Notes under the pieces: model-generated | What the model saw: the letters and a program-made list of their open reading frames with translations, nothing else | The model's database searches: none | Told to the model about the DNA's origin: nothing | Made by a program: the position numbers and the translations under genes | Shown here: one piece after another, positions 18,261 through 46,651 of the stretch | Layout: every line of letters starts with the position of its first letter | How positions within the stretch are numbered: position 1 is the stretch's first letter | From: Celeribacter baekdonensis | Lineage (GTDB): Bacteria; Pseudomonadota; Alphaproteobacteria; Rhodobacterales; Rhodobacteraceae | Direction: 5' to 3' | Length of the DNA: 64,000 nt | Assembly (NCBI RefSeq): GCF_003047105.1 | Contig: NZ_CP028475.1 | Location: 1,736,001-1,800,000 of the forward strand

Positions 18261-18346
18261 TGGTGCCCGCGGCCGGACTCGAACCGGCACGGCCATTCAG
18301 CCGGGAGATTTTAAGTCTCATGTGTCTACCATTCCACCACGCGGGC
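18261..18346 (-). tRNA. tRNA-Leu (UAA anticodon)
   Basis: This 86-base gene with encoded CCA (TGG at 18261-18263 on the plus strand) has the acceptor stem GCCCGCG, a long variable arm as in class II tRNAs, a GGTTCGAGTCC T-arm, and the anticodon loop CTTAAAA giving UAA. Confidence 0.97.
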
Positions 18347-27576: not shown

Positions 27577-30500
27577 ATGGCAATGGAAAAGACATTTGAC
27601 GCGCGTGACGCAGAAGCGCGGATTTACGAGGCTTGGGACAAGGCAGGGGCGTTCAAAGCCGGGGCCAATAAGTCCCGTGACGAGACCTTTACCATCATGA
27701 TCCCGCCGCCCAACGTGACGGGCGCGTTGCATGTGGGCCATGCCTTTAACAATACCATTCAGGACATCTTGATCCGTTGGCACCGGATGCGTGGCTTTGA
27801 CACGCTGTGGCAGCCCGGCCAAGACCACGCAGGCATCGCGACCCAGTTGATGGTGGAAAAAGAGCTGGCGAAATCTGGCAAAAAGCGCACGGATTTCACC
27901 CGCCCCGAGTTTTTGGAAAAGGTCTGGGAGTGGAAGGGCCAATATGGCGCAACCATCATCAATCAGCTCAAACGCCTGGGCTCGAGCTGTGACTGGTCGC
28001 GCAACGCCTTCACCATGTCGGGTGCCCCCGGCGCGCCCGCAGGCGAAGAGGGCAATTTCCACGACGCCGTGATCAAAGTCTTTGTTGAGATGTACAACAA
28101 GGGTCTGATCTATCGCGGCAAACGTTTGGTCAACTGGGACCCGCATTTTGAGACCGCGATTTCCGACCTCGAAGTTGAGAACGTCGAAACGCCGGGCCAT
28201 ATGTGGCATTTCAAATACCCGCTCGCAGGCGGCGAAACCTACACCTATGTCGAGAAAGACGAGGACGGGAACGTCACCTTCACCGAGGAACGCGATTACA
28301 TTTCCATCGCCACCACGCGGCCTGAAACCATGCTGGGCGATGGCGCGGTTGCCGTTCACCCCGATGACGCGCGTTACGCACCGATTGTGGGCAAGCTCTG
28401 CGAAATTCCGGTCGGTCCAAAAGAACACCGCCGCCTGATCCCGATCATCACCGATGACTACCCGGATATGACGTTCGGTTCCGGGGCGGTGAAAATCACC
28501 GGCGCGCATGATTTCAACGACTACCAAGTCGCCAAACGTGGCGGATTGCCGATGTACCGGTTGATGGACACCCGTGGCGCAATGCGTGACGATGGCATGT
28601 CCTATGCCGACAGCGCGCTTTTGGCAGCAGAAATCTTGGCCGGCAAACCGTTCACCGAGATCGAAGTCGACGCGGTCAACCTTGTGCCCGATCACCTGCG
28701 CGGCTTGGACCGGTTCGAGGCGCGCAAAGCCGTGGTCGACGAGATCAACGCCGAAGGTCTCGCCGTGATGACCACCATCACCCGCAAAGTCAAAGACGAC
28801 GAAGGTGTGGAGTCCGAAATCACCGAGACCGTGCCCTACGTCGAAGACAAACCGATCATGCAGCCCTTTGGCGACCGCTCCAAAGTCGTGATCGAACCGA
28901 TGCTGACCGATCAATGGTATGTGGACGCCGAAAAAATCGTTGGCCCGGCGTTGGATGCGGTGCGCAAGGGTCGGACAAAAATCATGCCCGAGTCGGGTGA
29001 GAAAGTGTATTTCCACTGGCTTGAAAACATCGAACCGTGGTGCATTTCGCGTCAACTTTGGTGGGGGCATCAGATCCCGGTGTGGTACGGGCTGGACCTC
29101 TCCGCGCCGAACTTCAAAGACGACGAAGGCGATGGTGCCCTGGACGAGGTGGAATTGTTCCGCCTGTTGACCGAGGGCGGCATGTTGCACCTTGGCGATG
29201 TGCATCATTGCGCCGCCGAATTTGACGGGGTGATCGCTGCGTTTGAGGGCGAATTGGCCGATGTGCCGACCCCGATCAACCATGCGCGTATCGTCGAAGT
29301 CGACAGCCGCCAAGCCGCGATCGAAGCCTTCGCCGAAAGCCTCGCCGCCTATAACGTCAGCCAAGACCCGACCAAACTGGTCTACCCGGTCTGGCGCGAC
29401 CCCGATGTGTTGGACACATGGTTCTCGTCGGGCCTCTGGCCAATCGGCACGCTGGGCTGGCCGGAATGGGATGAGAGCACGTCGAAATATTTCCCGACCG
29501 ATGTGTTGGTCACCGGCCAAGACATCCTGTTCTTCTGGGTTGCCCGGATGATGATGATGCAGCTTGCCGTCGTAGACGAAATTCCATTCCACACCATCTA
29601 CCTGCACCAACTCGTCCGCGACGAGAAGGGCAAGAAGATGTCAAAAACCACCGGAAACGTCATCGACCCGCTTGAGATCATTGATGAATTTGGTGCCGAT
29701 GCGCTGCGATTCACCAATGCCTCGATGGCCTCCATCGGCGGCGTGTTGAAACTCTCTGTCGATCGGATCAAAGGCTATCGCAACTTCGGCACCAAAATCT
29801 GGAACGCCGCGCGCTTTGCCGAGATGAACGGCGTCTTCGACGCATATGACCCCAGTGTCCTCCCAACGCCGAATGCGACGGTCAACAAATGGATCATCGG
29901 TGAAACCGCGAAAGTGCTGGCCGAGGTCGACACCGCCTTTGCCGAATATCGGTTCAACGATGGGGCCAATGCGCTCTACGCCTTTGTCTGGGGCAAGTTC
30001 TGTGACTGGTATGTCGAGCTCTCAAAACCGCTGTTCTACGATGGCGATGACGCGGCCAAGGCCGAAACCCGCCAAACCATGGGCTGGGTGCTGGATCAGG
30101 CGCTGACCATGCTGCACCCGATCATGCCGTTCATCACCGAAGAGCTGTGGGGCACGATTAAATCGGATCGCACACTGTTGGCGATCTCGGATTGGCCGGA
30201 GCTGTCGCTTGATCTGGTCGATCCTGAGGCGGACCGTGAAATGAACTGGGTGATTGATCTGATCGAGAGCATCCGTTCGTCGCGCGCCGAAGTGCACGTA
30301 CCTGCGGGGCTGAAAATCCCGATGGTTCAGGTCGAGTTGGACGAGGCGGGCAAAACCGCCTGGGCCAACAACGAAGCGTTGATCATGAAGCTTGCGCGTC
30401 TTGACAGCCTGACCCCCGGCCCGATGCCAAAAGGCGCGATCACCATCACCGTTGGCGGCGGCACATTCGCCCTGCCACTCGAAGGGGTGATCGACATTGC

Positions 30501-30702
30501 CGAGGAAAAAGCCCGGCTTGAAAAGGTCTTGGGCAAACTGTCCAAAGAGCTTGGCGGTCTGCGCGGACGGTTGAAAAACCCGAACTTCGTTGCCTCCGCC
30601 CCTGAAGAGGTTGTGGCCGAGGCACAAGAAAATCTGGCTGCACGCGAAGAGGAAGAGGGCAAAATCAAAACCGCTCTCGCCCGCCTCGCCGAAATCGGCT
30701 AA
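27577..30702 (+). CDS. valS: Valyl-tRNA synthetase
   Basis: This 1041-residue class I synthetase has the HIGH motif HVGH at residues 52-55 after PPPNVTGAL, an editing domain ([10 protein letters not shown]), the KMSKS loop KMSKT at 687-691, and a C-terminal coiled-coil arm ([18 protein letters not shown]). Length is normal for the family with a small acidic insertion near residues 510-530. ATG 27577 and ATG 27583 are both possible starts. A strong terminator follows. Confidence 0.97.
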
Positions 30703-30718
30703 CCCTCTGACATCCTTA

Positions 30719-30746
30719 AAAAGGCCCGTCATTTGGCGGGCCTTTT
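30719..30746 (+). terminator. Intrinsic terminator of valS
   Basis: AAAAGGCCCG (30719-30728) and CGGGCCTTTT (30737-30746) form a perfect 10-bp stem with an 8-base loop, ending in a T-run, 16 bases after the valS stop. Confidence 0.9.
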
Positions 30747-30776
30747 GTTTTGAGTATTTGGACTGCAATGAAGGGC

Positions 30777-30891
30777 TAAAGCGTCACGCCTTTAACCTGA
30801 GACAGGGGAAAGGCGTGACGCTGCCAGACATATCCATGGTGTGGGCGTTGCGCCATAAACCCGTAAAACAGGTTTATGGCGCAACGCTTTA
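30777..30891. repeat. 115-bp two-hairpin repeat, copy 1
   Basis: The element begins TAAAGCGT and ends ACGCTTTA, an 8-bp terminal inverted repeat. Inside are two perfect hairpins: AGCGTCACGCCTTT with AAAGGCGTGACGCT, and a 17-bp stem formed by GCGTTGCGCCATAAACC and its complement. A second copy of identical length lies at 42961-43075, about 93% identical. Both lie between convergent genes. The right end supplies the stop codon of the minus-strand gene. It carries no ORF of note. Confidence 0.85.
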
Positions 30892-31685
30892 TTCGTATTT
30901 GGCCGCGCGCTTTTGCATCTGCGCCATGACGCTTTCCATCTGATCCTTGGTGCCAATCAAGGCGCGCTGTTCGCGGCTTTCTTCCATCAGAATATGCGCC
31001 CGCTCACTCACACTCTCAGCAACATCAATCAACCGCTTGGCGGCCTGAATGGCAGAGGGGCTTTTGCTTGCGATCACCAAGGCGATCTCATGCGCACGGG
31101 CGTGGGCGTCCTCGGCAATCTCGGTGACAAGGCCGTAGGCCAAAGCACGATCCGCAGGGACCACCTCATGGCTGTAGGTCAAAAGCCGCAACACATCCGA
31201 GCGCAGCACCCGCGGAAACAGAACCATCCCACCCATATCGGGCACAAGGCCCCATTTCATCTCCATGATCGACAGCTGCGCGTCAGGCGCGGCGATGCGA
31301 ATATCGGCGGCGATGGCCAATTGCATCCCCGCGCCAAAACATGGGCCATGAAGGGCGGCAATCACCGGGATCGGCAGGTCATAAAGCGACAGAGAGAAGG
31401 CCTGAAACGCATTGCCATCCCCATGGGTGCGCCGCATCACCAGATCGTCCAAATCCTCTGACATAAACCGTTGGAAATTAGAGGTATCAAGCCCGGCACA
31501 AAATGCCTGACCCGCCCCGAAAGCACCACAACGCGTGCGTCAGAGGTGGCAATCTCGGCCACGGCGGACAAAAGATCACTGACCAAAGCCTCGGACACGG
31601 CATTCATTTTATCCGGGCGATTGAGCGTCACATGCGCGATGTGGTCTTTGATCTCAAGCGTGACAGTCTTGGGTGTTTCGGTCAT
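30889..31685 (-). pseudogene. Enoyl-CoA hydratase/isomerase, one-base frameshift
   Basis: The start at 31685 (MTETPKTVTLEIKDHIAHV) follows AGGAGGAG and leads into LNRPDKMNAV. After VVVLSG the frame breaks in a C4 run at 31515-31518. One added G on the coding strand restores SGAGQAFCAGLDTSNF, joining MSEDLDDLV, the oxyanion-hole block HGPCFGAGMQLA and the rest to 30889. The span of 797 bases lacks one. The restored crotonase would be about 265 residues and act on an unknown CoA ester, probably in fatty acid breakdown. Confidence 0.85.
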
Positions 31686-31789
31686 GGCGGCTCCTCCTGC
31701 TGCCGAAACGCTATCAGGGACGCGCGCCAAGGTCAGGGCTGACGTTGCGACGCTTGCGCAGGCCGACAAGTTAAGGCAGGAAAAGCGCT

Positions 31790-32914
31790 ATGACAGATAT
31801 GACAGATTCACGCCAAACGGCACTCGCCCAAACCCTGCCCGCCACCGTGCCCTTTGTGGCCCCGGAACGGATGGAGGCGTTGCGCGGTGCGCCGTTCGAC
31901 GCAAGGTTGGGCGCGAATGAATTGTCCTTTGGCCCCTCACCGAAAGCATTAGAGACCATGGCGGCCAGTCTGAGCGGCCTGTGGAAATATGGCGAGCCGG
32001 AGAACCGCGATCTGCGTCTGGCGATTGCCGCGCGTCACGGCATTGCACCGGAGAGTGTCACCGTGGGCGAAGGCATCGACGGGCTCTTAGGCAATTTGGT
32101 CCGACTTTATGTCGGACCCGGCGACACGGTTGTGACCTCAGCGGGTTCTTATCCGACGTTCAATTACCATGTCGCGGGCTTTGGAGGCACGTTACATACT
32201 GTGCCCTACAAGGGCGATCACGAGGACCCCGAGGCGTTGATTTCCAAGGTGCGCGTGGTGGGGGCAAAGCTCGTGTACTTGTCCAATCCAAACAATCCGA
32301 TGGGATCGGTGCATTCGGCGCAAACCGTGCAAGACATGATCGAGGCCGTGCCTGCGGGATGTTTGATGATCCTGGACGAAGCCTATAGCGAATTTGCCCC
32401 CGTGAGCACCCGACCCGCGATTGATGTCACTGACCGCCGCGTCATTCGGTTCCGTACCTTTTCAAAGGCCTATGGCATAGCGGGTGCGCGCATTGGCTAC
32501 GGCATAGCCCATCCGATTGTGGCCACCGCTTTTGACAAAATTCGCAACCATTTTGGTGTCAATCGCGTGGCCCAGGCTGGGGCTTTGGCGGCATTTGAGG
32601 ATCGGGACCACCTGTCTGAAACCCTAAAACGGGTCTCTGAGGGCCGCGCTAAAATTGTACAAATCGCGCAAGACAACGGTCTGACGCCCCTGCCCTCCGC
32701 CACCAATTTTGTCGCCGTCGATTGCGGTAAAGACGGCACCTTTGCCCGCGCGGTTTTGACCGCTTTGGCCACGCGCGGGGTGTTCGTTCGGATGCCGGGG
32801 ATCGCGCCACTCGACCGCTGCATCCGTATTTCGGTGGGCCGCCCGGAGGAGCTTGAGGTGTTGGCCGAGCGGTTGCCACTGGCTTTGGCGGACGCGCGCG
32901 CAGCTGTGGCCTAA
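31790..32914 (+). CDS. Class I/II aminotransferase, histidinol-phosphate aminotransferase-like
   Basis: This 374-residue fold-type I PLP enzyme has ANELSFGPSP at the N-terminus, YLSNPNNPMG, ILDEAYSEF, and the PLP Lys in FRTFSKAYGIAGARIGYG. It looks like the HisC family, but without other his genes its substrate is uncertain. AGGAAAAG precedes the ATG at 31790. It is convergent with the next aminotransferase. Confidence 0.88.
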   Translation: MTDMTDSRQTALAQTLPATVPFVAPERMEALRGAPFDARLGANELSFGPSPKALETMAASLSGLWKYGEPENRDLRLAIAARHGIAPESVTVGEGIDGLLGNLVRLYVGPGDTVVTSAGSYPTFNYHVAGFGGTLHTVPYKGDHEDPEALISKVRVVGAKLVYLSNPNNPMGSVHSAQTVQDMIEAVPAGCLMILDEAYSEFAPVSTRPAIDVTDRRVIRFRTFSKAYGIAGARIGYGIAHPIVATAFDKIRNHFGVNRVAQAGALAAFEDRDHLSETLKRVSEGRAKIVQIAQDNGLTPLPSATNFVAVDCGKDGTFARAVLTALATRGVFVRMPGIAPLDRCIRISVGRPEELEVLAERLPLALADARAAVA

Positions 32915-32920
32915 GCGCGG

Positions 32921-34114
32921 TTATACCCGCGAGGACAACAGTTTGGCCGCCGCAACCGACCCGCCGCTTTGGTGCGAAATATCGAGCGCGACAAAGGCGG
33001 TTTCAATCGCACCGATGATGCCAAGCACCATATGGGCGTTGATATGGCCCATATGGCCTATGCGGAAATAGCCATCGGATTCAGCCGAACCAATGTCCCC
33101 AAAGCCCAAAGAAATCCCAAGCGTAATGCCAAGATGTTCGGTCAACCATGTGCGCAGTTGCGTGGCCGCCGGAGCCGCAAGCCCCAAGGTCGTGACCGCA
33201 TGGGAGCGCGCAGCCGGGTCCGCAATGTTGAAATGCAACGGAGCGCCCCAGTGATCCACAGCCGCCCAATACGCCCGCGCCAAGGTTTCGTGCCGGGCAA
33301 AAACGTTGTCCAAACCCTCTTCCAAAATCATATCAACGGCTTGGCGCAGACCATAGAGATGATGGGTCGGCGGTGTGCCGTCGAAATATTCATAGAGATG
33401 CACAGGCTTGGCCCGCGTTTCCCACGCCCAATAGGGGGTGCGCAGATCAGCATTGCGCCCCGCCTCAAGTGCCTTGTCTGAGAACCAGACAAAGCCCAGA
33501 CCGGGAGGGGTCATCAGGCCTTTTTGCGACGCCGCGATCATCACATCGACGCCCCACGCGTCCATCTCAAACCGTTCACAGCCTAATGAGGCAATCGCGT
33601 CCACCGCATAGATCGCCGGGTGAGCAGCGGCATCAATCGCCTGACGCGCCAGAGCAATATCATTGCGCACCGAAGTGGCGGTGTCGACATGGGTGACCAA
33701 AACCGCTTTGATCTCATGTGCGGTGTCTGCCCGCAAAGCCGCCTCCAAACGGGCGGGATCAATCGGGGCCTGTTTGCCAAACTCGATGACCTCAACTCTG
33801 GCCCCCAAACGGGCGGCCACATCGGCCCAGCCATGGCCGAAATTTCCTGTCGCACAGACCAAAACCTTATCTCCACGCGAGATCATATTGGTGAGCGACG
33901 CTTCCCAAAGGCCGTGACCGTTCGAGATAAAAAATGCCATGTGATGCGCCGTGCCCGCGATCTTTTTGAGATCGGGCACAAGACTTTGAGTCAGATCGAC
34001 CAACTCGCCGGTATAGATATTCGGCGCCGGGCGATGCATGGCCTGAAGCACCGGATCGGGGATCACGGAAGGGCCGGGAATGGCAAGGTAATGGCGACCG
34101 TTGGCAAGTGTCAT
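32921..34114 (-). CDS. Alanine/serine-glyoxylate aminotransferase family protein
   Basis: This 397-residue class V PLP enzyme has the family start YLAIPGPSVIPD, TGNFGHGWAD, YAVDAIASLG and the PLP Lys in AASQKGLMTPPGL. It likely transfers an amino group to glyoxylate or acts in serine-pathway or purine-derived glyoxylate metabolism. Only 6 bases separate its stop from that of the convergent aminotransferase. Confidence 0.88.
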   Translation of the reverse strand: MTLANGRHYLAIPGPSVIPDPVLQAMHRPAPNIYTGELVDLTQSLVPDLKKIAGTAHHMAFFISNGHGLWEASLTNMISRGDKVLVCATGNFGHGWADVAARLGARVEVIEFGKQAPIDPARLEAALRADTAHEIKAVLVTHVDTATSVRNDIALARQAIDAAAHPAIYAVDAIASLGCERFEMDAWGVDVMIAASQKGLMTPPGLGFVWFSDKALEAGRNADLRTPYWAWETRAKPVHLYEYFDGTPPTHHLYGLRQAVDMILEEGLDNVFARHETLARAYWAAVDHWGAPLHFNIADPAARSHAVTTLGLAAPAATQLRTWLTEHLGITLGISLGFGDIGSAESDGYFRIGHMGHINAHMVLGIIGAIETAFVALDISHQSGGSVAAAKLLSSRV

Positions 34115-34305
34115 GGGCTGTCCTCAAACTCACATCAGGCCCAAGCGGTATCGCCCCAAAGCGGCCCCGTCAATTGTCGCTCATGTCACAGAGGGGTGCG
34201 CGTGTTTGGAGCAACCCCACCCTTGACGCCCCATGCGCCCGCCTTGCTTGCCCCGGCGGGCAAAGGACGATAAAGAGGCGCGATAATTTTTCAATCGGAG
34301 CCCTG

Positions 34306-34995
34306 ATGTTCAAGACGCTAAAAAGAGGGTTCAAAAGGTTTGAGCGCGGTGAGGTCGGCCAGTTTGGCAACGACGTGTCCACGCCACGTACCCGCAGGCT
34401 GGCGATGTGGCATTTCCACCTGTTTGACCATGCGTTTTTGCGTGGCATTTGGACCAACCTGTATGAAATCGCGCCCGGCGTGTGGCGGTCCAATCAGCCT
34501 TCGCCTGCGCGGATCAAACGCTATGCTCAAATGGGGATCAAAACCATCCTGAGCCTACGCGGCGACAAAGACCTGTCGTTTATGTTGCTGGAAAAACAAG
34601 CCTGTGCTGAACATGGGATCACGTTGATCAGCACCGACAAAGCCGCCGCCCGCGGAGCCCTGTCGGGCAAAGACTATGTCGCGTTAATTGACCTTTTGGC
34701 CTCAATCCCGAAACCGTTTTTGATCCATTGCAAATCCGGCGCAGACCGGGCCGGGCTGGCCTCCGCACTGTATCTGTTGCACTGTGAAGGGGCCTCGATT
34801 GGAGAGGCGAAAAAGATGTTGAGCTTTCGGTTCATGCATCTCAAAAGTACGAAAACCGGCATTTTGGATCACATCCTTGATCTCTACGAGGCCGATCTAA
34901 AAGCCCATGGTCCGATCCCGATCCGGGACTGGTTTGAGACCCGCTATGACATTGAAAAGGCCCGCATGTTTAAAACCATGCGCTCCTTCCCCTAA
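34306..34995 (+). CDS. Dual-specificity/tyrosine phosphatase family protein
   Basis: This 229-residue protein has a Cx5R phosphatase loop, HCKSGADRAG, with C142 and R148. Before it are VWRSNQPSP and GIKTILSLRGD, as in bacterial DSP-like enzymes acting on proteins or phospholipids. The start at 34306 (MFKTLKRGFKRF, a basic amphipathic start) has CGGAG upstream. It is 12 bases before an MsbA-like exporter gene, so a role in envelope lipid or lipid A metabolism is plausible. Confidence 0.82.
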   Translation: MFKTLKRGFKRFERGEVGQFGNDVSTPRTRRLAMWHFHLFDHAFLRGIWTNLYEIAPGVWRSNQPSPARIKRYAQMGIKTILSLRGDKDLSFMLLEKQACAEHGITLISTDKAAARGALSGKDYVALIDLLASIPKPFLIHCKSGADRAGLASALYLLHCEGASIGEAKKMLSFRFMHLKSTKTGILDHILDLYEADLKAHGPIPIRDWFETRYDIEKARMFKTMRSFP

Positions 34996-35007
34996 GAAAG
35001 CGCCCCG

Positions 35008-36921
35008 ATGAGCACGCCCGCCCCCTTCATCCCGGACACCGGTTCACGCACATTGATCGCATGGCTTTGGCGCGATTATTTGCACCGCTATGTGGTGCTG
35101 GTGGCTGTGGCTTTGGTGTTTATGGCGCTCGAAGGCGCGATGTTGGGTGCGCTCTCCTATCTGATCAAACCGATGTTCGACCGGGTGTTGGTGGCCAAAA
35201 ATAGCGATGCGATCATCTGGGTCGCGCTTGCCGTCTTTGGCGTTTTCACCGCCCGTGCGGTTGCTTCGTTCAGTCACCGCGTCCTCATGGCCGTGGTGGG
35301 GCAACGGGTTGCGGCCACGCTCCAAGCCCGGCTTGTCGCCCATATGCTGACCCTTGATGGTCGGTTTTTCCAAGACCACCCCCCCGGCACCCTGATCGAA
35401 CGGACACGCGGTGATAGTGCTGTCGTTTCAAGCGTGTGGGGCACCGTGCTTGCCGCCTTTGGGCGCGATCTCATTTCACTTTTGTCGCTGCTGACTGTGG
35501 CGATTTTGGTCGATTGGCGTTGGACGTTGATCGCTGTGGCTGGCGCACCCCTGTTGGCCGTGCCTGTGACGCTTTTGCAAAACCTCGTGCGCCGCACCAC
35601 GCGCAGTGCACGTCAGGCCTCGGCCCGCGTCTCAACCCGGTTGGACGAGATTTTTCACGGCGCGACCACAATCAAACTTTCGGGCACAGAAGCCCGAGAA
35701 GCCGACCGATTTCACGGCGAAATCAAGCACTTCGTCACCTTGCAGATCAAATCCGAAGCCGGGCAAGCGGGCATTCCGGCGCTGATGGACATCGTCGCAG
35801 GGCTCGGGTTTTTCGGCGTATTGCTATATGGCGGCCATCAGATCATCGACGGCACCAAAACGGTCGGTGAGTTCATGTCGTTTTTCACCGCAATGGCTTT
35901 GGTGTTTGAACCGTTGCGGCGTTTGGGCAATGTTTCCGGCGTGTGGCAGGCAGCGCGGGCCTCGTTGGAGCGCATCTATGCGATCTTTGCCGAACGGCCA
36001 GAAATCACCTCGCCCGCGACCCCCAAAGCCCTACCCATTGCCGCCAAAGACGCCGACATCCGGTTTGAAAATGTGCGGTTCGCCTATGCCGATGCGCCGG
36101 TGTTAAACGGCACCACGTTCACCGCTGAGGCTGGGAAAACCACCGCTTTGGTCGGGGCTTCCGGGGCCGGAAAATCCACCGTATTCAACCTGATGACGCG
36201 TCTGGCGGACCCGAAAGAGGGCTCCATTTCCATCGGCGGCGTCGTCACAACGGAACTGTCCCTGCCCGATCTACGCGGCCTTTATTCGGTGGTGTCGCAA
36301 GACGCGCTGTTGTTTGACGAAAGCCTGCGCGACAATGTGTTGATGGGGGCCGAGGCGGATGAGGCAAAACTCAACGCCGCCCTCAAAGCCGCGCATGTTG
36401 ACGACTTTTTGCCGAAACTTGACCAAGGTCTCGACACCCAAGTCGGGCCGCGTGGATCGGGTCTTTCAGGCGGGCAACGGCAACGGGTGGCGATTGCCCG
36501 CGCTGTGCTGCGCGACCGTCCGGTGTTGTTGCTCGACGAGGCCACCTCGGCCCTTGATGCACAGTCGGAAAAGGTGGTTCAGACCGCGCTTGAGACCCTC
36601 TCCAAGGATCGCACCACTTTGGTCATCGCTCACCGGCTTTCAACCATTCGCAACGCGCATAAGATTGTGGTGATGGACAAGGGTCGGGTCGTAGACGAGG
36701 GCACCCATGATGAACTCTTGGCGCGGGGTGGGCTTTATGCCGATCTCTATCGCCTACAATATGCCGATGGCCGCACGATCACCGACGGTAAGACCGGGCG
36801 AGTGCTGAAGGGTCAGCGCCAAGCAGGTAGCGCAGAAGACGGACAAGGTTCCGGCCTCCTTGCCGCAACCAGCCGTGTGTTTGGTAGCGTGTTGGGTCTG
36901 TTTGGACGCACAAAGGACTAA
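35008..36921 (+). CDS. ABC exporter, MsbA-like (fused membrane and ATPase domains)
   Basis: This 637-residue half-transporter has six membrane helices in residues 1-320 and an ATPase domain with Walker A GASGAGKST (about 383-391), signature LSGGQRQR and Walker B VLLLDEATSALD, then the H-loop IAHRLST. It probably flips lipid A or another lipid. After RLQYADG it continues for about 55 Gly/Arg-rich residues not usual in MsbA; the coding bases of this tail overlap the opposite-strand glycosyltransferase by 143 bases. Confidence 0.9.
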   Translation: MSTPAPFIPDTGSRTLIAWLWRDYLHRYVVLVAVALVFMALEGAMLGALSYLIKPMFDRVLVAKNSDAIIWVALAVFGVFTARAVASFSHRVLMAVVGQRVAATLQARLVAHMLTLDGRFFQDHPPGTLIERTRGDSAVVSSVWGTVLAAFGRDLISLLSLLTVAILVDWRWTLIAVAGAPLLAVPVTLLQNLVRRTTRSARQASARVSTRLDEIFHGATTIKLSGTEAREADRFHGEIKHFVTLQIKSEAGQAGIPALMDIVAGLGFFGVLLYGGHQIIDGTKTVGEFMSFFTAMALVFEPLRRLGNVSGVWQAARASLERIYAIFAERPEITSPATPKALPIAAKDADIRFENVRFAYADAPVLNGTTFTAEAGKTTALVGASGAGKSTVFNLMTRLADPKEGSISIGGVVTTELSLPDLRGLYSVVSQDALLFDESLRDNVLMGAEADEAKLNAALKAAHVDDFLPKLDQGLDTQVGPRGSGLSGGQRQRVAIARAVLRDRPVLLLDEATSALDAQSEKVVQTALETLSKDRTTLVIAHRLSTIRNAHKIVVMDKGRVVDEGTHDELLARGGLYADLYRLQYADGRTITDGKTGRVLKGQRQAGSAEDGQGSGLLAATSRVFGSVLGLFGRTKD

Positions 36922-37465
36922 GCACGATCCGGCCCTTGAGTTTGCGCACCAGAGCGACGTCTTCCATCAGCGGGATGTCGTCAAAGCCGCCGACCTCATC
37001 ATACATGTCGCGCGAGATCAAAAGCGCCTGATCCCCGTAAGGCAGATCAAACCAGTTGCTGCGCAGATTGGCCCAACCTGCGGTCCATTTGGCGCGCATC
37101 CCCTTGGTGTCGCGGAACCCAAGCGAATACACCATCGCCTTGTCATAGCCATGTGCCAGATGGATCACAGTCGCCTCAGCCCAGCCTTCGGGCAACCATG
37201 TGTCGGCATGAAGAAACAACAACCAATCGCCCTGAGCCGCCTCTGCCCCGCGTTTGAGTTGCCCGCCGCGCGATGGCGCGCCAATGATCAACTCGGCACC
37301 GACAAAATCGGCCATCTTCTCGACCCCATCGGTCGAACCGCCATCGCTCAGGATCAACTCCCGCACCAGTCCCGCGTCCAAGCCCTCCATCAAAGACAGC
37401 ATGGTATCGCGCAGCTTTGGCGTGGCATTCAGGGTCGGGATGATGACAGAGATCGGCGCGCGCAT
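36779..37465 (-). CDS. Family 2 glycosyltransferase (TIGR04283-like)
   Basis: This 228-residue GT-A transferase starts RAPISVIIPTLNATPKL, with ELILSDGGSTDG and LLFLHADTWLPEGW (the DXD-like HADT site). The C-terminal block RYQTHGWLRQGGRNLV is also typical of the family, so the 3' end that lies antisense to the ABC gene is real. ATG 37465 is chosen where homology begins. It is divergent from ygfZ with 63 bases between. Confidence 0.85.
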   Translation of the reverse strand: MRAPISVIIPTLNATPKLRDTMLSLMEGLDAGLVRELILSDGGSTDGVEKMADFVGAELIIGAPSRGGQLKRGAEAAQGDWLLFLHADTWLPEGWAEATVIHLAHGYDKAMVYSLGFRDTKGMRAKWTAGWANLRSNWFDLPYGDQALLISRDMYDEVGGFDDIPLMEDVALVRKLKGRIVLSPLCVQTDPTRYQTHGWLRQGGRNLVRLLRYLLGADPSALARSYRR

Positions 37466-37528
37466 GTGTTTCCCGCTTTTCGTGGCTCTTTTCCTTCCTA
37501 TATGAAGAGTGGAAAAAGGGGAATGAGC

Positions 37529-38284
37529 ATGACAGACACATCCGCACGCAGCGTCATTGAGATCACAGGCGAGGATCGCCTCCATTTCCTGCAAGGGCTG
37601 GTGACCAACGATGCGCGCCACCTGGAGCACGGGCCGGTCTATGCCGCGCTTTTGTCGCCACAGGGCAAATTCATCGTCGATTTCTTTTTGGTGCCCCAGG
37701 GCGAGACCGTGCTTTTGGATGTGGCAAGTTCAGAGGCAGAGGCGCTTTTGAAACGCCTGACCATGTATAAGCTGCGTTCCAAGGTGACCTTAAGCCTGAG
37801 TGAGCGCACCGTGTCGCGAGGACTTGGCGACGCACCCGAGGGGGCCATCCAAGACCCCCGCACCGCGGACATGGGATGGCGCGCCTATGATGGTCGACCC
37901 TCGCAAGAGGTCGATTGGGACGCGATCCGCGTGGCCCATTGCGTGCCAGAGACCGGAGTTGAGCTGACCCCGGACACCTTTATCTTAGAGGCCGGGTTTG
38001 AGCGCCTGAACGGGGTCGATTTCAAAAAGGGCTGTTATGTTGGCCAAGAGGTCACCGCCCGGATGAAACACAAAACCGATCTGCGCAAGGGCCTTGCGCG
38101 TGTGACCCTCACCGGCTCCGCCCCTGTCGGCACCGAAATCACCACTGCGGACGGCAAATCCGCAGGCGTTTTGTTCACCCAATCCGGGGGGCACGCCATC
38201 GCCTATCTGCGCTTTGATCGTGCCACCGGTCCCCTGCGCGCCGGGGAGGCCGAAATTTTCGCTCAAGCAACAGCAAAGTCTTAA
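37529..38284 (+). CDS. ygfZ: Folate-binding protein YgfZ (Fe-S cluster assembly/repair)
   Basis: This 251-residue GcvT-like protein has the YgfZ signature KGCYVGQEVTARMKHK with its essential Cys, and the N-terminal HFLQGLVTND. It supports iron-sulfur cluster enzymes with tetrahydrofolate. ATG 37529 is preferred over 37523 because the latter is only two bases from the GGGG Shine-Dalgarno. Confidence 0.92.
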   Translation: MTDTSARSVIEITGEDRLHFLQGLVTNDARHLEHGPVYAALLSPQGKFIVDFFLVPQGETVLLDVASSEAEALLKRLTMYKLRSKVTLSLSERTVSRGLGDAPEGAIQDPRTADMGWRAYDGRPSQEVDWDAIRVAHCVPETGVELTPDTFILEAGFERLNGVDFKKGCYVGQEVTARMKHKTDLRKGLARVTLTGSAPVGTEITTADGKSAGVLFTQSGGHAIAYLRFDRATGPLRAGEAEIFAQATAKS

Positions 38285-38378
38285 CTTTTCAAACCTACCC
38301 TTCTCGGGCATGATCATCATATCTGATGCCAGGGAGGACAAACGTGCGGGCCAATTCTTTCAAACGGTGGGGCAAACG

Positions 38379-39212
38379 ATGACCACGCCCTGTATCATTT
38401 GCGTTGCGATCACCGGCTCTTTGCCAACCAAAGCCGACAATCCGGCGGTGCCAATCACCGTGGCGGAGCAAATCGAATCCACCCATGAGGCCTATGAGGC
38501 CGGGGCCAGCATCGCCCATTGTCATGTCCGCGATGACGAAGGCAAACCCAGCTCTGATCCCGACCGGTTCGCCCGGCTGAAAGAGGGTATTCAAACCCAT
38601 TGTCCCGGCATGATTGTGCAACTGTCAACCGGGGGACGATCTGGGGCGGGCAAAACCCGTGGCGGCATGTTATCCCTGCGTCCGCCGATGGCCTCTTTGT
38701 CTGTCGGCTCTAACAATTTCCCGACCCGCGTCTATGAAAATCCGCCCGATCTTGTCGATTGGCTGGCCTCTGAGATGATCACCTACGGCGTCAAACCCGA
38801 AATTGAAGCCTTTGATCTTTCGCATATTTATCAAGCCAAGCTGATGGCGGATCGCGGCCAGATCAAAGGCACGCCTTATGTGCAATTCGTCATGGGGGTC
38901 AAAAACGCCATGCCCGCCGACAAGCGCGTGTTTGATTTCTACGTCGAAACCGTGAAACACCTGTTTGGCGAAAACACCCCGTGGTGTGCCGCTGGTGTGG
39001 GCCGTCATCAACTTGAACTCAACGAATGGTCTGCCGCCGCGGGCGGTCATTTGCGCACCGGACTTGAGGATAACATCCGTATTGATCGCGACACATTGGC
39101 TCCGTCCAATGCCGCTTTGGTCGAACTGGCCGTGCTTGCCGCCCAGCGTCACAAACGCCCCATCGCCACGCCTGCGCAAGCGCGGGCCATCCTTGGATTG
39201 CGAAAGGGCTAA
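38379..39212 (+). CDS. BKACE family protein (DUF849, beta-keto acid cleavage)
   Basis: This 277-residue TIM-barrel enzyme has the start CIICVAITG, then AHCHVRDDEG (zinc His pair) and GRHQLELNEWSAAAGG, and ends HLRTGLEDN with TPAQARAILGL. It joins a beta-keto acid with acetyl-CoA to give acetoacetate and a CoA ester. The exact substrate is unknown. GGTGGGG is upstream of ATG 38379. Confidence 0.88.
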   Translation: MTTPCIICVAITGSLPTKADNPAVPITVAEQIESTHEAYEAGASIAHCHVRDDEGKPSSDPDRFARLKEGIQTHCPGMIVQLSTGGRSGAGKTRGGMLSLRPPMASLSVGSNNFPTRVYENPPDLVDWLASEMITYGVKPEIEAFDLSHIYQAKLMADRGQIKGTPYVQFVMGVKNAMPADKRVFDFYVETVKHLFGENTPWCAAGVGRHQLELNEWSAAAGGHLRTGLEDNIRIDRDTLAPSNAALVELAVLAAQRHKRPIATPAQARAILGLRKG

Positions 39213-39249
39213 TCCTTTACGCCGTCAGCGCATTAAAACATCGTGGCGA

Positions 39250-39552
39250 TCAAATGATGATCGTCGCGCATTCCAAAGCACATCCCGCGACACACAACAT
39301 ATCGCCATTGCAGCCGCGCGAACATTCTTTGAGGCAGTTGGCCGCATGTTCGGGCGTGCGCAGTTTTGGATCCAAAATCATCAAATCAGGTACGCCCTCC
39401 GGCCCCATCGTGACCCGTGCGACCTCCTCGTCATCATCGGCAAGCAGGATCGTGATCTCGGTTGGGCTATCAATCCGCGCGCGCAGCCCCTGCCCCGTGT
39501 CCGGATTGATGGCGGTCAGAGTATAGGCAAGACGGCTTTTTGAGTCTGTCAT
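39250..39552 (-). CDS. Hypothetical protein with cysteine-rich C-terminus
   Basis: This 100-residue protein has an acidic middle (LLADDDEEVARV) and a C-terminus with five cysteines in a short span (ECSRGCNGDMLCVAGC, then ECA), which could bind metal or form disulfides. There is no signal peptide. AAAGGAGGG precedes the start at 39552. No family is recognised. Confidence 0.68.
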   Translation of the reverse strand: MTDSKSRLAYTLTAINPDTGQGLRARIDSPTEITILLADDDEEVARVTMGPEGVPDLMILDPKLRTPEHAANCLKECSRGCNGDMLCVAGCALECATIII

Positions 39553-39633
39553 GGCACCCTCCTTTGGCAACGCCCAAAGTCTCAACTCTTTGGCTCGATT
39601 TTGCATTGATCTGAGCCCGTGCAAAAAGCGCAT

Positions 39634-39664
39634 AAAAAAAAGCGGCCCATACAGAGCCGCTTTT
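39634..39664 (-). terminator. Intrinsic terminator of efp
   Basis: AAAAGCGGC (39638-39646) and GCCGCTTTT (39656-39664) form a 9-bp stem. On the minus strand it ends in a T-run from 39641 down to 39634. It lies 23 bases after the efp stop. Confidence 0.85.
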
Positions 39665-39686
39665 ATGTTCTTCACTTCGAAGCCGC

Positions 39687-40250
39687 TTAAGCGCGTTCAG
39701 AATATTCCATGGTCTCGGTGTTCACCACGATGTCCTCGTCTTGACCCACGAACGGCGGCACCATGACGCGCACACCATTGTCCAAAATCGCGGGTTTGAA
39801 CGAGTTCGCAGCCGTCTGACCTTTGACCACCGGCTCCGTTTCCACAATCTTGCAGATCACTTTTTGCGGCAACCGCGCATTGAGCGCCTCGGCTTCGTGA
39901 AACTCAACCACAATGGTCATGCCATCTTGCAGGAACGGACGGCGATCCCCCAGAATATCGGCAGGCATTTCAACCTGATCGAAGGTCTCCATGTCCATAA
40001 TCGTCAACAAGCCGTCGCTCTCATAGAGAAACTGCATGTCCTTTTGCTCCAAACGCACGCGCTCGACCTTATCGGCAGAGCGAAACCGTTCGTTGAGCTT
40101 GCGCCCGTCCCGCAGGTTCTTCAGCTCGACCTGAGCAAAGGCACCACCCTTGCCGGGCTTGACGTGATCGACTTTTACAGCGGCCCACAGGCCCCCGTCA
40201 TGTTCCAGCACGTTGCCGGGGCGGATTTCGTTACCGTTGATTTTGGGCAT
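39687..40250 (-). CDS. efp: Translation elongation factor P
   Basis: This 187-residue protein has three beta-barrel domains and helps ribosomes through polyproline stretches. It starts [14 protein letters not shown] and has the KPGKGGAF loop, with K34 as the residue usually modified by EpmA. No modification genes are seen in the window. The gene is monocistronic with its own terminator. Confidence 0.96.
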
Positions 40251-40382
40251 ATGTCTAACCGTGGCCGTTGGTTGAAGAATGAGTTTGGCACCCTATATCC
40301 GTCCAAGGGCAGGCTGACAAGGCAGTCCTCTGGCGGCACACGTGTGAGATTTGACACAGTTGGGAAAATGTTAGCGACCAAC

Positions 40383-40403
40383 CCTATGCGCAAACCGCAT
40401 AGG
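40383..40403. promoter_or_regulatory. Hairpin in the efp-DUF6280 intergenic region
   Basis: CCTATGCG (40383-40390) and CGCATAGG (40396-40403) form a perfect 8-bp stem with a 5-base loop, 93 bases before the DUF6280-like start. It could be an operator or a leader hairpin. The rest of the 245-base region shows nothing else clear. Confidence 0.35.
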
Positions 40404-40495
40404 TGGCATGCAAATGCATCGTATCCGAATCGACACAAACCTGTCATAAGGGCCCGCACGCCAGAAAGACAAGAGCAATAAAACAAGGAAAACCC

Positions 40496-40810
40496 ATGGC
40501 TGAGTTCGTTGATGGCACCGCATTCAACTATGAGCAAGGACAACGCGCCCGCAAGCTTTTTGCGGCTGTTGTGTTGGCTGCACTCGATGATGCGATCGCC
40601 GATGATAAGAAATACGGCAACGGCCCGGAACAAATCGCCCGTTGGGCACGCTCCCGTGATGGGCGCGAAGTTTTGTCCTGTGCTGGGATCGACCCGTGCG
40701 AACGCGTGGTCTCCGGCCTGATGGAATTTGTGTCGAAAGGCATTCGGACCTCTGTCGCGCTGTCACGCGAAGAAAGCGAACGTCGCAACGCACAGGCGGA
40801 AGCTGCCTAA
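40496..40810 (+). CDS. DUF6280-like conserved small protein
   Basis: This 104-residue soluble protein reads AEFVDGTAFNYEQGQRARKLF and DDKKYGNGPEQIARW, matching from memory a small protein highly conserved in Rhodobacterales. The function is unknown. AAGGAAAA precedes the start at 40496. It has its own terminator, so it is a single-gene unit. Confidence 0.8.
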   Translation: MAEFVDGTAFNYEQGQRARKLFAAVVLAALDDAIADDKKYGNGPEQIARWARSRDGREVLSCAGIDPCERVVSGLMEFVSKGIRTSVALSREESERRNAQAEAA

Positions 40811-40839
40811 GCTCTCCGATCACGCTGCTATTTCTGAAG

Positions 40840-40871
40840 AAGACGCGCCATGCTGCTCGCTGGCGCGTCTT
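40840..40871 (+). terminator. Intrinsic terminator of the DUF6280-like gene
   Basis: AAGACGCGCCA (40840-40850) and TGGCGCGTCTT (40861-40871) form an 11-bp stem followed by TTCTTTT, 30 bases after the stop codon. Confidence 0.88.
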
Positions 40872-40924
40872 TTCTTTTGCCGCCATACTGCGCGTATCCT
40901 TGGTGAAACTGATGGAACCCGCAC

Positions 40925-41419
40925 ATGTCCCAAAAGAAAATCGACATCCCCTCAATTCCCGCCAAAATTGGCACGCTTTATCCGCCGCCCCACCACAAAA
41001 ACACCCGCGCCCGTGTCAAACGCGCGCTCGGTGACACGGCGGGCCTGACGCAATTTGGCGTCAACATGACCACGCTTCCACCCGGCACATGGTCCGCCCT
41101 GCCCCATTGGCATGAAAAGGAAGATGAGTTCATCTATATCGTTTCGGGCCACCCGACCTTGGTCTATGGCGACAGCGAAGAACAGCTCGCCCCCGGCGAT
41201 TGCGCAGGCTTCAAAGCGGGGGAAGAAATCGGCCATTGCCTACAAAACCGCACCGACAGCGATGTGATCGTGTTAGAGGTCGGATCGCGCATTGCGGGTG
41301 AACGCGCCTTTTATCCGGGGCTTGATCTGATGGCGGACACCGCGTCAGACGCTTTTTACCACCACCTCGATGGCACCCCTTACCCTGATCTCAAACGCCG
41401 TGGCCCCGATGATGACTGA
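40925..41419 (+). CDS. Cupin domain protein
   Basis: This 164-residue protein has a double-stranded beta-helix fold with the cupin motif 1 PHWHEKEDEFIYIVSG (two His, Glu) and motif 2 PGDCAGFKAGEEIGHCL. The metal site is therefore complete. Family members of this type are often annotated as transcriptional or sugar-related, but no substrate can be assigned. Confidence 0.85.
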   Translation: MSQKKIDIPSIPAKIGTLYPPPHHKNTRARVKRALGDTAGLTQFGVNMTTLPPGTWSALPHWHEKEDEFIYIVSGHPTLVYGDSEEQLAPGDCAGFKAGEEIGHCLQNRTDSDVIVLEVGSRIAGERAFYPGLDLMADTASDAFYHHLDGTPYPDLKRRGPDDD

Positions 41420-41495
41420 GGCCTTGCGCATTTGGCTTTCGTCTTCAACGCAGTTCAAATACTCCTCTTAAAACCAAAAGGAGAAGGACAGCGGC

Positions 41496-42959
41496 GTGAC
41501 CAAAGCGATCATGATCCAAGGCGCGGGTTCGAACGTGGGCAAATCCATGTTGGTCGCGGGCATCGCGCGCGCCATGAGCCGCAGAGGCCTCAAAGTCGCG
41601 CCATTCAAACCACAAAACATGTCCAACAACGCCGCAGTCACCGAAGATGGCGGCGAAATCGGCCGCGCGCAGGCGCTTCAGGCCCGTGCCTGTGGCCTGC
41701 GCCCTCACTCCGACATGAACCCCGTTTTGCTCAAGCCCGAAACCGACGTCGGCGCGCAGATTGTGGTGCAGGGGCAACGGATCGACACGCTCAAAGCCCG
41801 TGCGTATGGCTCGATGAAAGCCACCTTGATGCCCGCCGTCATGGAGAGCTTTTACCGCCTTGCCAAAGGCGTCGATCTTGTCGTGATCGAAGGCGCCGGC
41901 AGCCCGGCAGAGATCAACCTACGCGAGGGCGACATTGCCAATATGGGCTTTGCCGAGGCGGCAAATGTGCCCGTGGTGCTGATTGGCGATATTGATCGTG
42001 GTGGCGTCATTGCGCAGCTCGTCGGCACCTATACGGTTCTGCCCAAGGCCGACCGCGAGCGGATCAAAGCCTTTGCCATCAACAAGTTTCGCGGCGACGT
42101 CAGCCTGTTCGCGGGTGGGACACGCGCCATCATCGAGGCCACCGGCTGGGCCGATTTGGGCACTTTGCCGTGGTTCGATCAGGCCCATCGCTTGCCTGCC
42201 GAGGATGTGATGGACATCACCTCACGCGGCAGTGGCGCGATCAAAATCGCCGTGCCAAAACTGTCCCGCATCGCCAATTTCGACGACCTCGACCCGCTGG
42301 CCGCCGAACCGAATGTGACCGTGCAGATTGTTGAACCCGGCCATGCCCTACCGGGGGACGTCGACCTCGTTTTGATCCCGGGCTCAAAATCGACCATCGG
42401 CGATCTGGCGTTTTTTCGCAGCCAAGGCTGGGACATCGACCTTTTGGCCCATGTTCGGCGTGGTGGCCATGTCATGGGAATTTGCGGCGGCTATCAGATG
42501 CTTGGCCAGTGGATCGACGACCCGGACGGGATCGAAGGTCACGCCGGACGGCATCCCGGCCTTGGGCTTTTGCAGGTGGAGACGGTGATGTCCGGCGACA
42601 AACGGTTGGCCGAAGTCACCGCGACCGAGCGCGCCACCGGCGCGCGTGTCACCGCCTACGAAATCCATATCGGCCGCACGGAAGGGGCCGATTGTGCCCG
42701 GGCGTGGTTGTCTCTGAACGACCAAGGCGGCACACGCCCAGAGGGCGCGATGTCGGCGGATGGTCGGGTCATGGGCTGTTATTTGCACGGGCTGTTTGCC
42801 AGCGACACGTTTCGCAACGGCTATCTGGCGCGGTTTGGCCTATGCGATGGAATCGCTGATTTTGACGGTGGGGTCGAAGCAACCCTAGAGGCGCTCGCAG
42901 ATCACATCGAGGCCCATTTGGATCTCGATGCGCTTTACGCACTCAGCGCCGAGATCTGA
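41496..42959 (+). CDS. cobQ: Cobyric acid synthase
   Basis: This 487-residue glutamine-dependent amidotransferase amidates four carboxylates of adenosyl-cobyrinic diamide in B12 synthesis. It has the P-loop-like QGAGSNVGKS, PFKPQNMSNN, EGAGSPAEINL, and the class I glutaminase Cys in MGICGGYQMLG. The start is a GTG at 41496 with AAGGAC upstream. No other cob genes and no cobalamin riboswitch are seen in the window. Confidence 0.95.
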   Translation: MTKAIMIQGAGSNVGKSMLVAGIARAMSRRGLKVAPFKPQNMSNNAAVTEDGGEIGRAQALQARACGLRPHSDMNPVLLKPETDVGAQIVVQGQRIDTLKARAYGSMKATLMPAVMESFYRLAKGVDLVVIEGAGSPAEINLREGDIANMGFAEAANVPVVLIGDIDRGGVIAQLVGTYTVLPKADRERIKAFAINKFRGDVSLFAGGTRAIIEATGWADLGTLPWFDQAHRLPAEDVMDITSRGSGAIKIAVPKLSRIANFDDLDPLAAEPNVTVQIVEPGHALPGDVDLVLIPGSKSTIGDLAFFRSQGWDIDLLAHVRRGGHVMGICGGYQMLGQWIDDPDGIEGHAGRHPGLGLLQVETVMSGDKRLAEVTATERATGARVTAYEIHIGRTEGADCARAWLSLNDQGGTRPEGAMSADGRVMGCYLHGLFASDTFRNGYLARFGLCDGIADFDGGVEATLEALADHIEAHLDLDALYALSAEI

Positions 42960-42960
42960 T

Positions 42961-43075
42961 TAAAGCGTCACGCCTTTCACCTGAGGCATGGGAAAGGCGT
43001 GACGCTGGCAGACATATCCATGGTGTGGGCGTTCCGCCATAAGCCCGTGAAACAGGTTTATGGCGGAACGCTTTA
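42961..43075. repeat. 115-bp two-hairpin repeat, copy 2
   Basis: Same length and layout as the element at 30777-30891, about 93% identical, with TAAAGCGT and ACGCTTTA at the ends. In the second hairpin the stem reads GCGTTCCGCC with GGCGGAACGC, against GCGTTGCGCC with GGCGCAACGC in copy 1: both sides of one base pair changed together. It starts one base after the cobQ stop and its right end forms the stop codon of the convergent PopZ-like gene. Confidence 0.85.
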
Positions 43076-44143
43076 TTCGAATTCGCGCAGGGTCAGCGCG
43101 CGCTGCACTTCGCGGCGCACCAGACGGCGGACGTTGCGCGTGATGCGTTCGCCCATTGCGCCCTGCAATTCCTCACGGATCACCTGCGCCACCAATTCAC
43201 GCAGCGCCTCCTCGTCCATCATCTCCTCATCGGCGTACCCGGCCAAAGCCAGCTCTTCCTCAAGACTTGGATCAGGATCGGCAGCCACCTCTTCAGGCGC
43301 GGCCATATCTTCGACCTCGGGCTCATCAACCGGCGGAAGATCATCAGACGCACGGGAGGTCTCATGCGCGGCGGGGGTTTCCTCGATCACTTCGGCATCG
43401 TCAATGTGATCGTGGCCTTGCTCAGACGGGCTCATCGCGGGGTCTTCCTCCTGCGGGACACGGAAATGAAGCACGCGGGCTCCGGGTTCAGCAAAGGCGC
43501 GCGGGATAGAGCAGGGGATTTCTGCCTCAAGATCCTCAGATCCATCCGGCTCCCACTCATAGGACTGAGCGCCCACGGCGGTTTCAAGTTCGGCAATCCG
43601 CTGTTCCAAACTCAGCCGCGACACATGAGCTGCGGCCTCAACATCCGGGGTGTCATCGAACCCAGCAGCCCAATCGGTTTCCTGGGCCTGATCGGTGTCT
43701 TCGCTTTGCGCCGCGGCACCAACCTCTTGCGCCACCAAGGTTTCAAGCTCGACGTTCGGCGCCTGCGCGTCGTTCAAATCGTCCTCAGGCGCGTGTTGTG
43801 TGTCTTCGGGAAGTGAAACCACCTGATCCATCGAAAGAATCAACGGCTGAGTGTCTGTGTCTTTGTCTGTGTCTGCCTTTGCCGCAACCACGCCATCGAC
43901 CTCAGCATCCCCCTCATCGCCAGAGGTCTCCACGTCCTGCGGCTCGACAGGATCTTGGGCAACGCGAAAATCAGGCGTCAGGATCAAAGCGGCAGGTCCC
44001 TGAGCGCGAACGGGGGACTCAGCCCGCAACGCAGGTTGAGAGCCTCCAGAGGGGCCATCATGATGATTATGGGTCTCAGCCACCAAACGCCGGATCGACG
44101 CAAGCACGTCTTCAGCATCCATATTCGTCATCGGATCAGACAT
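43073..44143 (-). CDS. PopZ-like DUF2497 polar organising protein
   Basis: This 356-residue protein has the PopZ layout: a short N-terminal helix MDAEDVLASIRRLVAE, a long acidic, disordered middle rich in Glu, Asp and Ala (about residues 45-300), and a C-terminal helical part LRELVAQVIREELQ and RRLVRREVQRAL that would drive assembly. In relatives it forms pole-associated condensates that anchor the chromosome. The start at 44143 has GGGAG upstream; the TAA stop is within the adjacent repeat. Confidence 0.72.
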   Translation of the reverse strand: MSDPMTNMDAEDVLASIRRLVAETHNHHDGPSGGSQPALRAESPVRAQGPAALILTPDFRVAQDPVEPQDVETSGDEGDAEVDGVVAAKADTDKDTDTQPLILSMDQVVSLPEDTQHAPEDDLNDAQAPNVELETLVAQEVGAAAQSEDTDQAQETDWAAGFDDTPDVEAAAHVSRLSLEQRIAELETAVGAQSYEWEPDGSEDLEAEIPCSIPRAFAEPGARVLHFRVPQEEDPAMSPSEQGHDHIDDAEVIEETPAAHETSRASDDLPPVDEPEVEDMAAPEEVAADPDPSLEEELALAGYADEEMMDEEALRELVAQVIREELQGAMGERITRNVRRLVRREVQRALTLREFE

Positions 44144-44217
44144 CCCGACTCCCTCACTCACTACAGCTTATGGTAGCCAGCTTCGCCCCTACACACAAGA
44201 GATCGCAGAAAGCAGAA

Positions 44218-46577: not shown

Positions 46578-46651
46578 GGCGAGTTGGCGGAGTGGTTACG
46601 CAGCGGATTGCAAATCCGTGTACAGGAGTTCGATTCTCCTACTCGCCTCCA
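46578..46651 (+). tRNA. tRNA-Cys (GCA anticodon)
   Basis: This 74-base gene with encoded CCA has the acceptor stem GGCGAGT with ACTCGCC, the anticodon stem-loop GGATTGCAAATCC (GCA), and the T-arm GGAGTTCGATTCTCC. It is followed by an integrase remnant pointing at its 3' end, so it is a probable attachment site. Confidence 0.97.

Follow-up and report, generated by a model that had tools for sequence, protein, structure and literature searches.

A family of IS630-type miniature transposable elements with folded ends in Celeribacter baekdonensis and other Rhodobacteraceae

What is the nature of a 115-bp sequence that occurs twice within a short distance on an alphaproteobacterial chromosome and folds each time into two long hairpins? 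The stretch of DNA analysed here, referred to as the window, comprises 64,000 nucleotides of Celeribacter baekdonensis (Rhodobacteraceae; assembly GCF_003047105.1, contig NZ_CP028475.1, positions 1,736,001 to 1,800,000), and positions given without further label are those of the window. An earlier note, made from these letters alone, described the two copies and placed three readings side by side: a non-autonomous mobile element, a bidirectional 3'-end element or a structured RNA. We find that the copies are miniature transposable elements (MITEs), members of a family that occurs across the Rhodobacteraceae.

Both copies lie on the forward strand and run from TA to TA: copy 1 at 30777..30891, with 111 bp between its two TAs, and copy 2 at 42961..43075. 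Copy 1 opens with the left copy of a duplicated target TA (30777..30778, recognised from the empty sites of relatives), followed by a left hairpin whose outer arm (30781..30793, GCGTCACGCCTTT) derives from the element end and whose inner arm (30809..30821) is its complement, then by a right hairpin with its inner arm at 30845..30861 and its outer arm at 30871..30887, and closes with the right copy of the TA at 30890..30891. In copy 2, the corresponding pairs of arms are 42965..42977 with 42993..43005 and 43029..43045 with 43055..43071. Coordinates, lengths and folds are thus as the note had described them: a DNA search gives 93% identity over 115 bp each (E 8.5e-44), and the folding energies are -70.3 kcal/mol for copy 1 (shuffle mean -32.3, z -10.9; strong on both strands) and -69.4 kcal/mol for copy 2 (shuffle mean -34.7, z -10.7). 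The copies differ at eight element positions. The compensatory swap reported in the second stem is there, at pair 74/106, which is G-C in copy 1 and C-G in copy 2 with both arms changed. All other differences had been assigned to loops or to G-T pairs, and this is right for positions 18, 26, 29 and 89 (loops) and for position 83 (an A-T pair that becomes G-T) but not for position 48, which lies in the linker.

The note had allowed for these two copies being the only ones anywhere; they are not. A DNA search of the genome itself returned 38 matches, which correspond to 19 places, since each half of the element resembles the reverse of the other half and the same place is seen twice. Eight of these are full or near-full length (one, L029, very divergent), four are partial and seven are single hairpins of about 46-51 bp; one further place came from a hairpin model search, making about 20. 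Beyond this genome, the DNA search matched nine of 41 genomes, namely C. baekdonensis itself and eight relatives of the same genus. The hairpin model, which scored 23 candidates per genome and whose counts are therefore lower bounds, found the element at E <=0.001 in at least 34 of the 248 family genomes searched (in 17 with E below 1e-6), in a patchy distribution, and a pattern scan of named genomes yielded at least 120 stretches, with nearly the whole element matched in 65 of the 80 listed. Celeribacter, Roseovarius, Sulfitobacter, Yoonia, Pelagivirga and Loktanella are among the genera of the stretches listed. Copies in which both ends could be recognised are mostly 115 or 116 bp long, with further cases of 49, 114, 286, 341 and 526 bp; the 88 copies chosen as full length for the comparisons below measure 114-116 bp, have inverted ends and contain no transposase gene, shorter forms existing besides. 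Outside the Rhodobacteraceae, a class-wide search with the hairpin model gave weak matches alone (best 1.3e-4), and a filter for the same layout found none in the 200 kb of Sinorhizobium meliloti pSymB that were scanned.

Two observations on distribution stand apart. A contig labelled Verrucomicrobia in a metagenome bin (L126) carries two copies, through either a binning error or transfer. In genome G007, two distant places (L239 1371-1485 and L256 1828-1942) have a 115-bp copy whose stems are quite different, of the TTTTTCG type; it adjoins transposase-like frames (listed for L239 only), as if it had inserted into an insertion sequence and been copied along with it.

The clearest sign of mobility comes from relatives that lack the element. 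For copy 1, G012 has an exact empty site, reading GAAGGCT-TA-TTCG where the window reads GAAGGGC-TA-element-TA-TTCG; the copy is missing in G013 also, where the right flank, with about 15 additional bases next to the site, is slightly rearranged. For copy 2, exact gap-free empty sites are present in G012, G013 and G008. Two sister species, G012 and G013, are thus without the element at both window sites. For 15 further copies, the flanks were joined with one TA and searched against three genomes. Twelve of these were aligned (L032, L039 and L054 fall outside the alignment) and, together with copy 1, gave a gap-free junction in 11 of 13 cases, L007 and L045 being rearranged. The junction in the relatives is mostly TA, the exceptions being TG in the two relatives of L002 and in one relative of L049, GA or CA at L003 and TT in a single relative of L012. 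The target of insertion is a TA, which becomes duplicated, as at both window copies. The aligned set includes the single-hairpin copies L012, L014 and L016 (about 49 bp, TA to TA), which implies either that single hairpins move as such or that they are 115-bp insertions that have shrunk. In G007, a divergent copy of another subfamily lies a few bases from the copy 2 site, in the same gap between genes, so this gap has either been hit more than once or retains an old copy. The search for sites without the element, which the earlier note had proposed, thus succeeded for both window copies, and with many copies, empty sites, TA duplication and IS630-type ends, it is the mobile-element option that is strongly supported.

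Those ends point to the source. Elements of the IS630 family occur in the same genus, with a length of 1057 bp in G008, where two of seven near-identical transposase copies have visible ends (L237 and L255), and 1100 bp in G004 (L236), where the frame contains a stop. Their ends are TAAAGCGTTTCGGCTTTAACCTGAGACA and TAAAGCGTTTCGGCTTGAACTTGAATCG, or close to these. Over its first 28 bases, the MITE left end, TAAAGCGTNNNGCCTTTAACCTGAGACA, differs from the downstream end of the insertion sequence at position 13 alone, leaving aside the free positions 9-11 (NNN), and the MITE right end, often TAAAGCGT...CCTGAATC, resembles the upstream end. The transposase of the G008/G004 type matches NF033545 (IS630, NCBIfam) and PF13358 (DDE_3), and many related transposases in named records are annotated as IS630 family transposase. 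As ends nearly equal to those of the MITE are found on IS630 elements of the same genus, transposition of the IS630 type, acting in trans, explains the observations best, and we consider it very probable that the element is an IS630 (Tc1/mariner-type) MITE with both ends of the insertion sequence, no gene between them, moved in trans by an IS630-family transposase into TA, which duplicates. In such a scheme, the two ends of an insertion sequence would have been joined without a gene, each end becoming the outer arm of a hairpin with a complementary inner arm, and an IS630-family transposase acting in trans would insert the product at TA and duplicate it. That this transposase is the mover, and that the hairpins are important for transposition, we infer.

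Several observations weigh against this account. The main weakness is that the mover appears to be absent or lost where the young copies are: no IS630-family transposase above the cut-off was found in C. baekdonensis, G012 or G013, all of which carry young copies. Of 20 genomes in the genus, only G004 and G008 have one above the cut-off, most others giving weak matches, and in the search of family genomes no close transposase (E <=1e-20) was found in G000 either. Nor do MITE and transposase clearly go together: across the 248 family genomes, the MITE (34 genomes) and a close transposase (38 genomes, E <=1e-20) co-occur in six, with 5.2 expected; for the 17 stronger MITE genomes, five are seen and 2.6 expected. 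Finally, movement of the element is itself deduced from comparison of genomes. It is common for MITEs to lose their mover once a burst of transposition is over.

How, then, is the fold to be understood? Hairpins were analysed singly, as RNAalifold on a mixed alignment missed the right hairpin and the right-hairpin columns of alignment A3 were out of register. In 67 distinct hairpins, a set that mixes left arms forced by the search pattern with free ones, 94.4% of stem cells are paired, against 74.7% in shuffled and at most 53.2% in slid arms, and two-sided changes are seen at 10 of 13 stem pairs, so that the single swap between the window copies is part of real covariation across the family. 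The conservation of the left arm in 64 of the 69 rows found for A3 is imposed by the search pattern and does not count as evidence here. At the free positions 9-11 of the 88 elements, the arms of one element match at 2.75 of 3 positions on the left and 2.84 of 3 on the right; when arms are swapped between elements, the values are 1.57 and 2.10. The fold is thus old and is kept across the family while the sequence drifts.

The young copies tell a different part of the story. In a set of 29 such copies, each 115 bp long and taken from three genomes (partial copies as well as L007, L029, L054 and L272 being excluded), one-sided deviations in the stems amount to 45 (28 mismatches and 17 G-U), whereas two-sided deviations comprise two mismatches, one G-U and three Watson-Crick pairs. 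One-sided deviations thus prevail, indicating that copies are not protected in place. Divergence from the consensus per site per copy is 0.033 in stems and 0.073 in loops and linker, a gap to which a handful of sites, variable in many of the copies, contribute part. We have drawn nothing from the excess of G-U over A-C in the family tally, which is confounded by shared ancestry, the young copies having about 11 distinct G-U and about nine distinct A-C events. We read these results as a fold kept in the transposing lineage and not in each resident copy, rather than as a conserved RNA in place.

Two other explanations of the fold have to be weighed. The first is that template switching copies one arm of a hairpin onto the other, which could yield the same pattern without any selection for the fold. 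Palindromic arms in bacteria are known to be corrected in this way, and one-sided states that could be intermediates are found at pair 74/106, where young copies have C-C (L270, L273), T-G (L278) and, beside the G-C of L001, G-T (L003). Such a process should affect all copies, however, yet most young copies retain their mismatches, and we regard this explanation as possible, if less likely than not. The second is a structured RNA or two-way terminator that selection maintains where the 3' ends of convergent genes meet. Both window copies do lie between convergent gene pairs, their folds are strong (that of copy 1 on both strands), and the family-wide covariation just described would be expected. 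The two sister species that lack the element at both sites, and the 45 one-sided deviations of the young copies set against three two-sided Watson-Crick changes, speak against a function of this kind at each site, as does Rfam, which at its gathering threshold finds in the window only two tRNA genes (18264-18346 and 46578-46648); this part of the earlier note is unsupported and we think it very unlikely. The last candidate for the mover, a RAYT (Y1 transposase) moving a REPIN, would account for two inverted hairpins and for single-hairpin forms, but the ends are symmetric with TA duplication and match an IS630 element, and PF01797, matched in five of 14 control genomes, is not matched in this one, so that it can be set aside with near certainty.

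The position of the element relative to genes repays closer attention for another reason. Copy 1 follows valS (27577..30702, forward strand) and faces a gene of the enoyl-CoA hydratase/isomerase family (30889..31464, reverse strand); copy 2 follows cobQ, encoding cobyric acid synthase (41496..42959, forward strand), and faces a gene without Pfam or NCBIfam match (43073..44161, reverse strand). In both cases, the TAA stop codon of the reverse-strand gene is part of the element end: at copy 1, the right TA with element base 30889 forms the rebuilt stop, and at copy 2, the stop lies at 43073-43075. The latter gene ends with TAG in G012 and TAA in G013, the element supplying TAA in the window. Stop codons of frames of at least 150 codons hold six of 11 clean empty sites, where nearby TAs would lead one to expect 2.24 (P 0.008); L002, which is one of the six, has TGA in the relatives. 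Whichever way round it lies, the element begins with AA beside the duplicated TA, so that a stop codon entered at its TA would be rebuilt as TAA, leaving the protein unchanged and allowing the insertion to survive. On an Aliiroseovarius crassostreae plasmid, the annotated putA likewise ends inside the end of an element copy, at the terminal TAA (L347 1613-1615). A terminator-like stretch after valS (30719-30775, about GGCCCGTCATTTGGCGGGCCTTTTGTTTTGAGTATTTGG) is a second, separate 3'-end repeat, with matches elsewhere in the same genome and in G001, G004, G007, G012, G015 and G019.

A further feature of the ends is the sequence GANTC, the methylation site of CcrM. The right loop of the MITE contains GANTC in 41 of the 88 copies, read inward as GAATC in 34, GACTC in four and GATTC in three. 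The young subfamily has it in 11 of 30, and none of the six young full-length copies of C. baekdonensis does, both window copies included: the place reads GTTTT inward from the right end in copy 1 (30865..30869) and GTTTC in copy 2 (43049..43053). An older copy in the same genome, L007, has GATTC in this loop. The corresponding position of IS630 elements was surveyed in 49 loci and a further 13 (eight new), 57 in all, for 38 of which a matching end pair was found. These are 32 alphaproteobacterial elements (31 distinct, as L373 repeats L300) and six others; the 19 unpaired loci, 17 alphaproteobacterial or from the family and two others, were dropped. ISRm10-1, with 14 of 28 end bases matching, fell under the bar of 16 in the 49-locus set and was admitted in the 13-locus set.

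At positions 23-27 of the end upstream of the transposase gene, GANTC is found in 28 of the 31 distinct alphaproteobacterial elements, which are related and hence not 31 independent events; L287, Paracoccus L366 and ISMno11 lack it. It is found at 23-27 of the other end in none of the 31, and at the upstream end in none of the six elements from Azotobacter, Pseudomonas, Nostoc, Calothrix, Pseudanabaena and Planctomyces, although the Azotobacter element, which has GATTC at position 23 of its other end, runs counter to a clean alphaproteobacterial split. Among the 29 elements of the 49-locus set, the motif is GAATC in 20, GATTC in four, GAGTC in two and GACTC in one (ISRm10-1 has GAATC). Columns 23, 24, 26 and 27 carry 1.79-2.00 bits, column 25 carries 0.92 and columns 9-22 at most 0.69. 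That all four middle bases occur while the frame is kept points to a constraint on GANTC itself. The MITE keeps the asymmetry of the insertion sequence, with right-end GANTC at the frequency given above against 27 of 29 in the upstream end, and GAGAC at 23-27 in 46 of 88 MITE left ends and 10 of 29 downstream ends of insertion sequences.

In C. baekdonensis, one frame of 376 codons contains RAMA, the domain at the C-terminus of CcrM; among 14 control genomes, the RAMA family is found in Caulobacter only. Dam gates the transposition of IS10 and IS50. By analogy, we propose tentatively, as something that may or may not hold, that CcrM, as a methylase of the cell cycle, gates the transposition of alphaproteobacterial IS630 elements by way of the one GANTC at 23-27 of the upstream end. 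The Caulobacter repeats discussed below and the present MITE would then be folded, non-autonomous offspring that carry the site or have shed it, and shedding may have freed part of the young Celeribacter subfamily. In the titles and opening lines of abstracts searched, neither this element nor CcrM sites in IS630 ends were found described.

How does the element compare with known repeats? The closest in layout are the CcrM-associated intergenic repeats (CIR) of Caulobacter (Chen and Shapiro 2003, via Delihas 2007), which are described in the 2007 review as intergenic, about 110 bp long, with two arms and a linker, TA ends and a GANTC that one of the arms carries in its terminal loop, their mobility being left unclear (PMC2229807). 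Compared by description, the present element shares the length, the two long hairpin arms and linker, the TA at both ends and the intergenic setting in an alphaproteobacterium; at the corresponding loop, GANTC is present in under half of the copies and in neither of those in the window. The difference is that we show TA duplication, empty sites and an origin of the ends from IS630. As the likeness rests on descriptions and not on sequences, we do not claim membership of CIR, and regard the element as a new IS630-type MITE family whose ends are folded and whose layout is CIR-like.

The RUP element of pneumococcus, a MITE of IS630-Spn1, is about 107 bp long with a TA target and IS630-like ends; it comes from different bacteria, the passages of the review consulted report no functional DNA motif for it, and repeats other than CIR are said there to be without the two-arm layout (PMC2229807). 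The IS630 insertion sequences of alphaproteobacteria (ISRm2011-2, ISRm10-1 and others) have similar ends and TA borders and are the source of the MITE ends; unlike the MITE, they measure about 1.05 kb and have a transposase gene, and what lies inside the ends of the G008 element is not their complement. Rhizobium intergenic mosaic elements (RIME, cited in PMC1273637) are another long alphaproteobacterial repeat with two palindromes. Finally, MITEPye1 of Paracoccus yeei is likewise a folding MITE from a related alphaproteobacterium, attributed to IS1182 rather than IS630 (PMC11578231).

These results show how a mobile repeat can insert harmlessly, by entering stop codons. They also provide a way for repeats of one layout (two arms, TA ends and a GANTC loop) to move, their mobility having been left open in the sections of the review consulted (PMC2229807). 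The puzzling methylation site of such repeats becomes a fixed part of a transposon end, which is a testable idea, and if CcrM does control this site, transposition in a large class of bacteria would be tied to the cell cycle.

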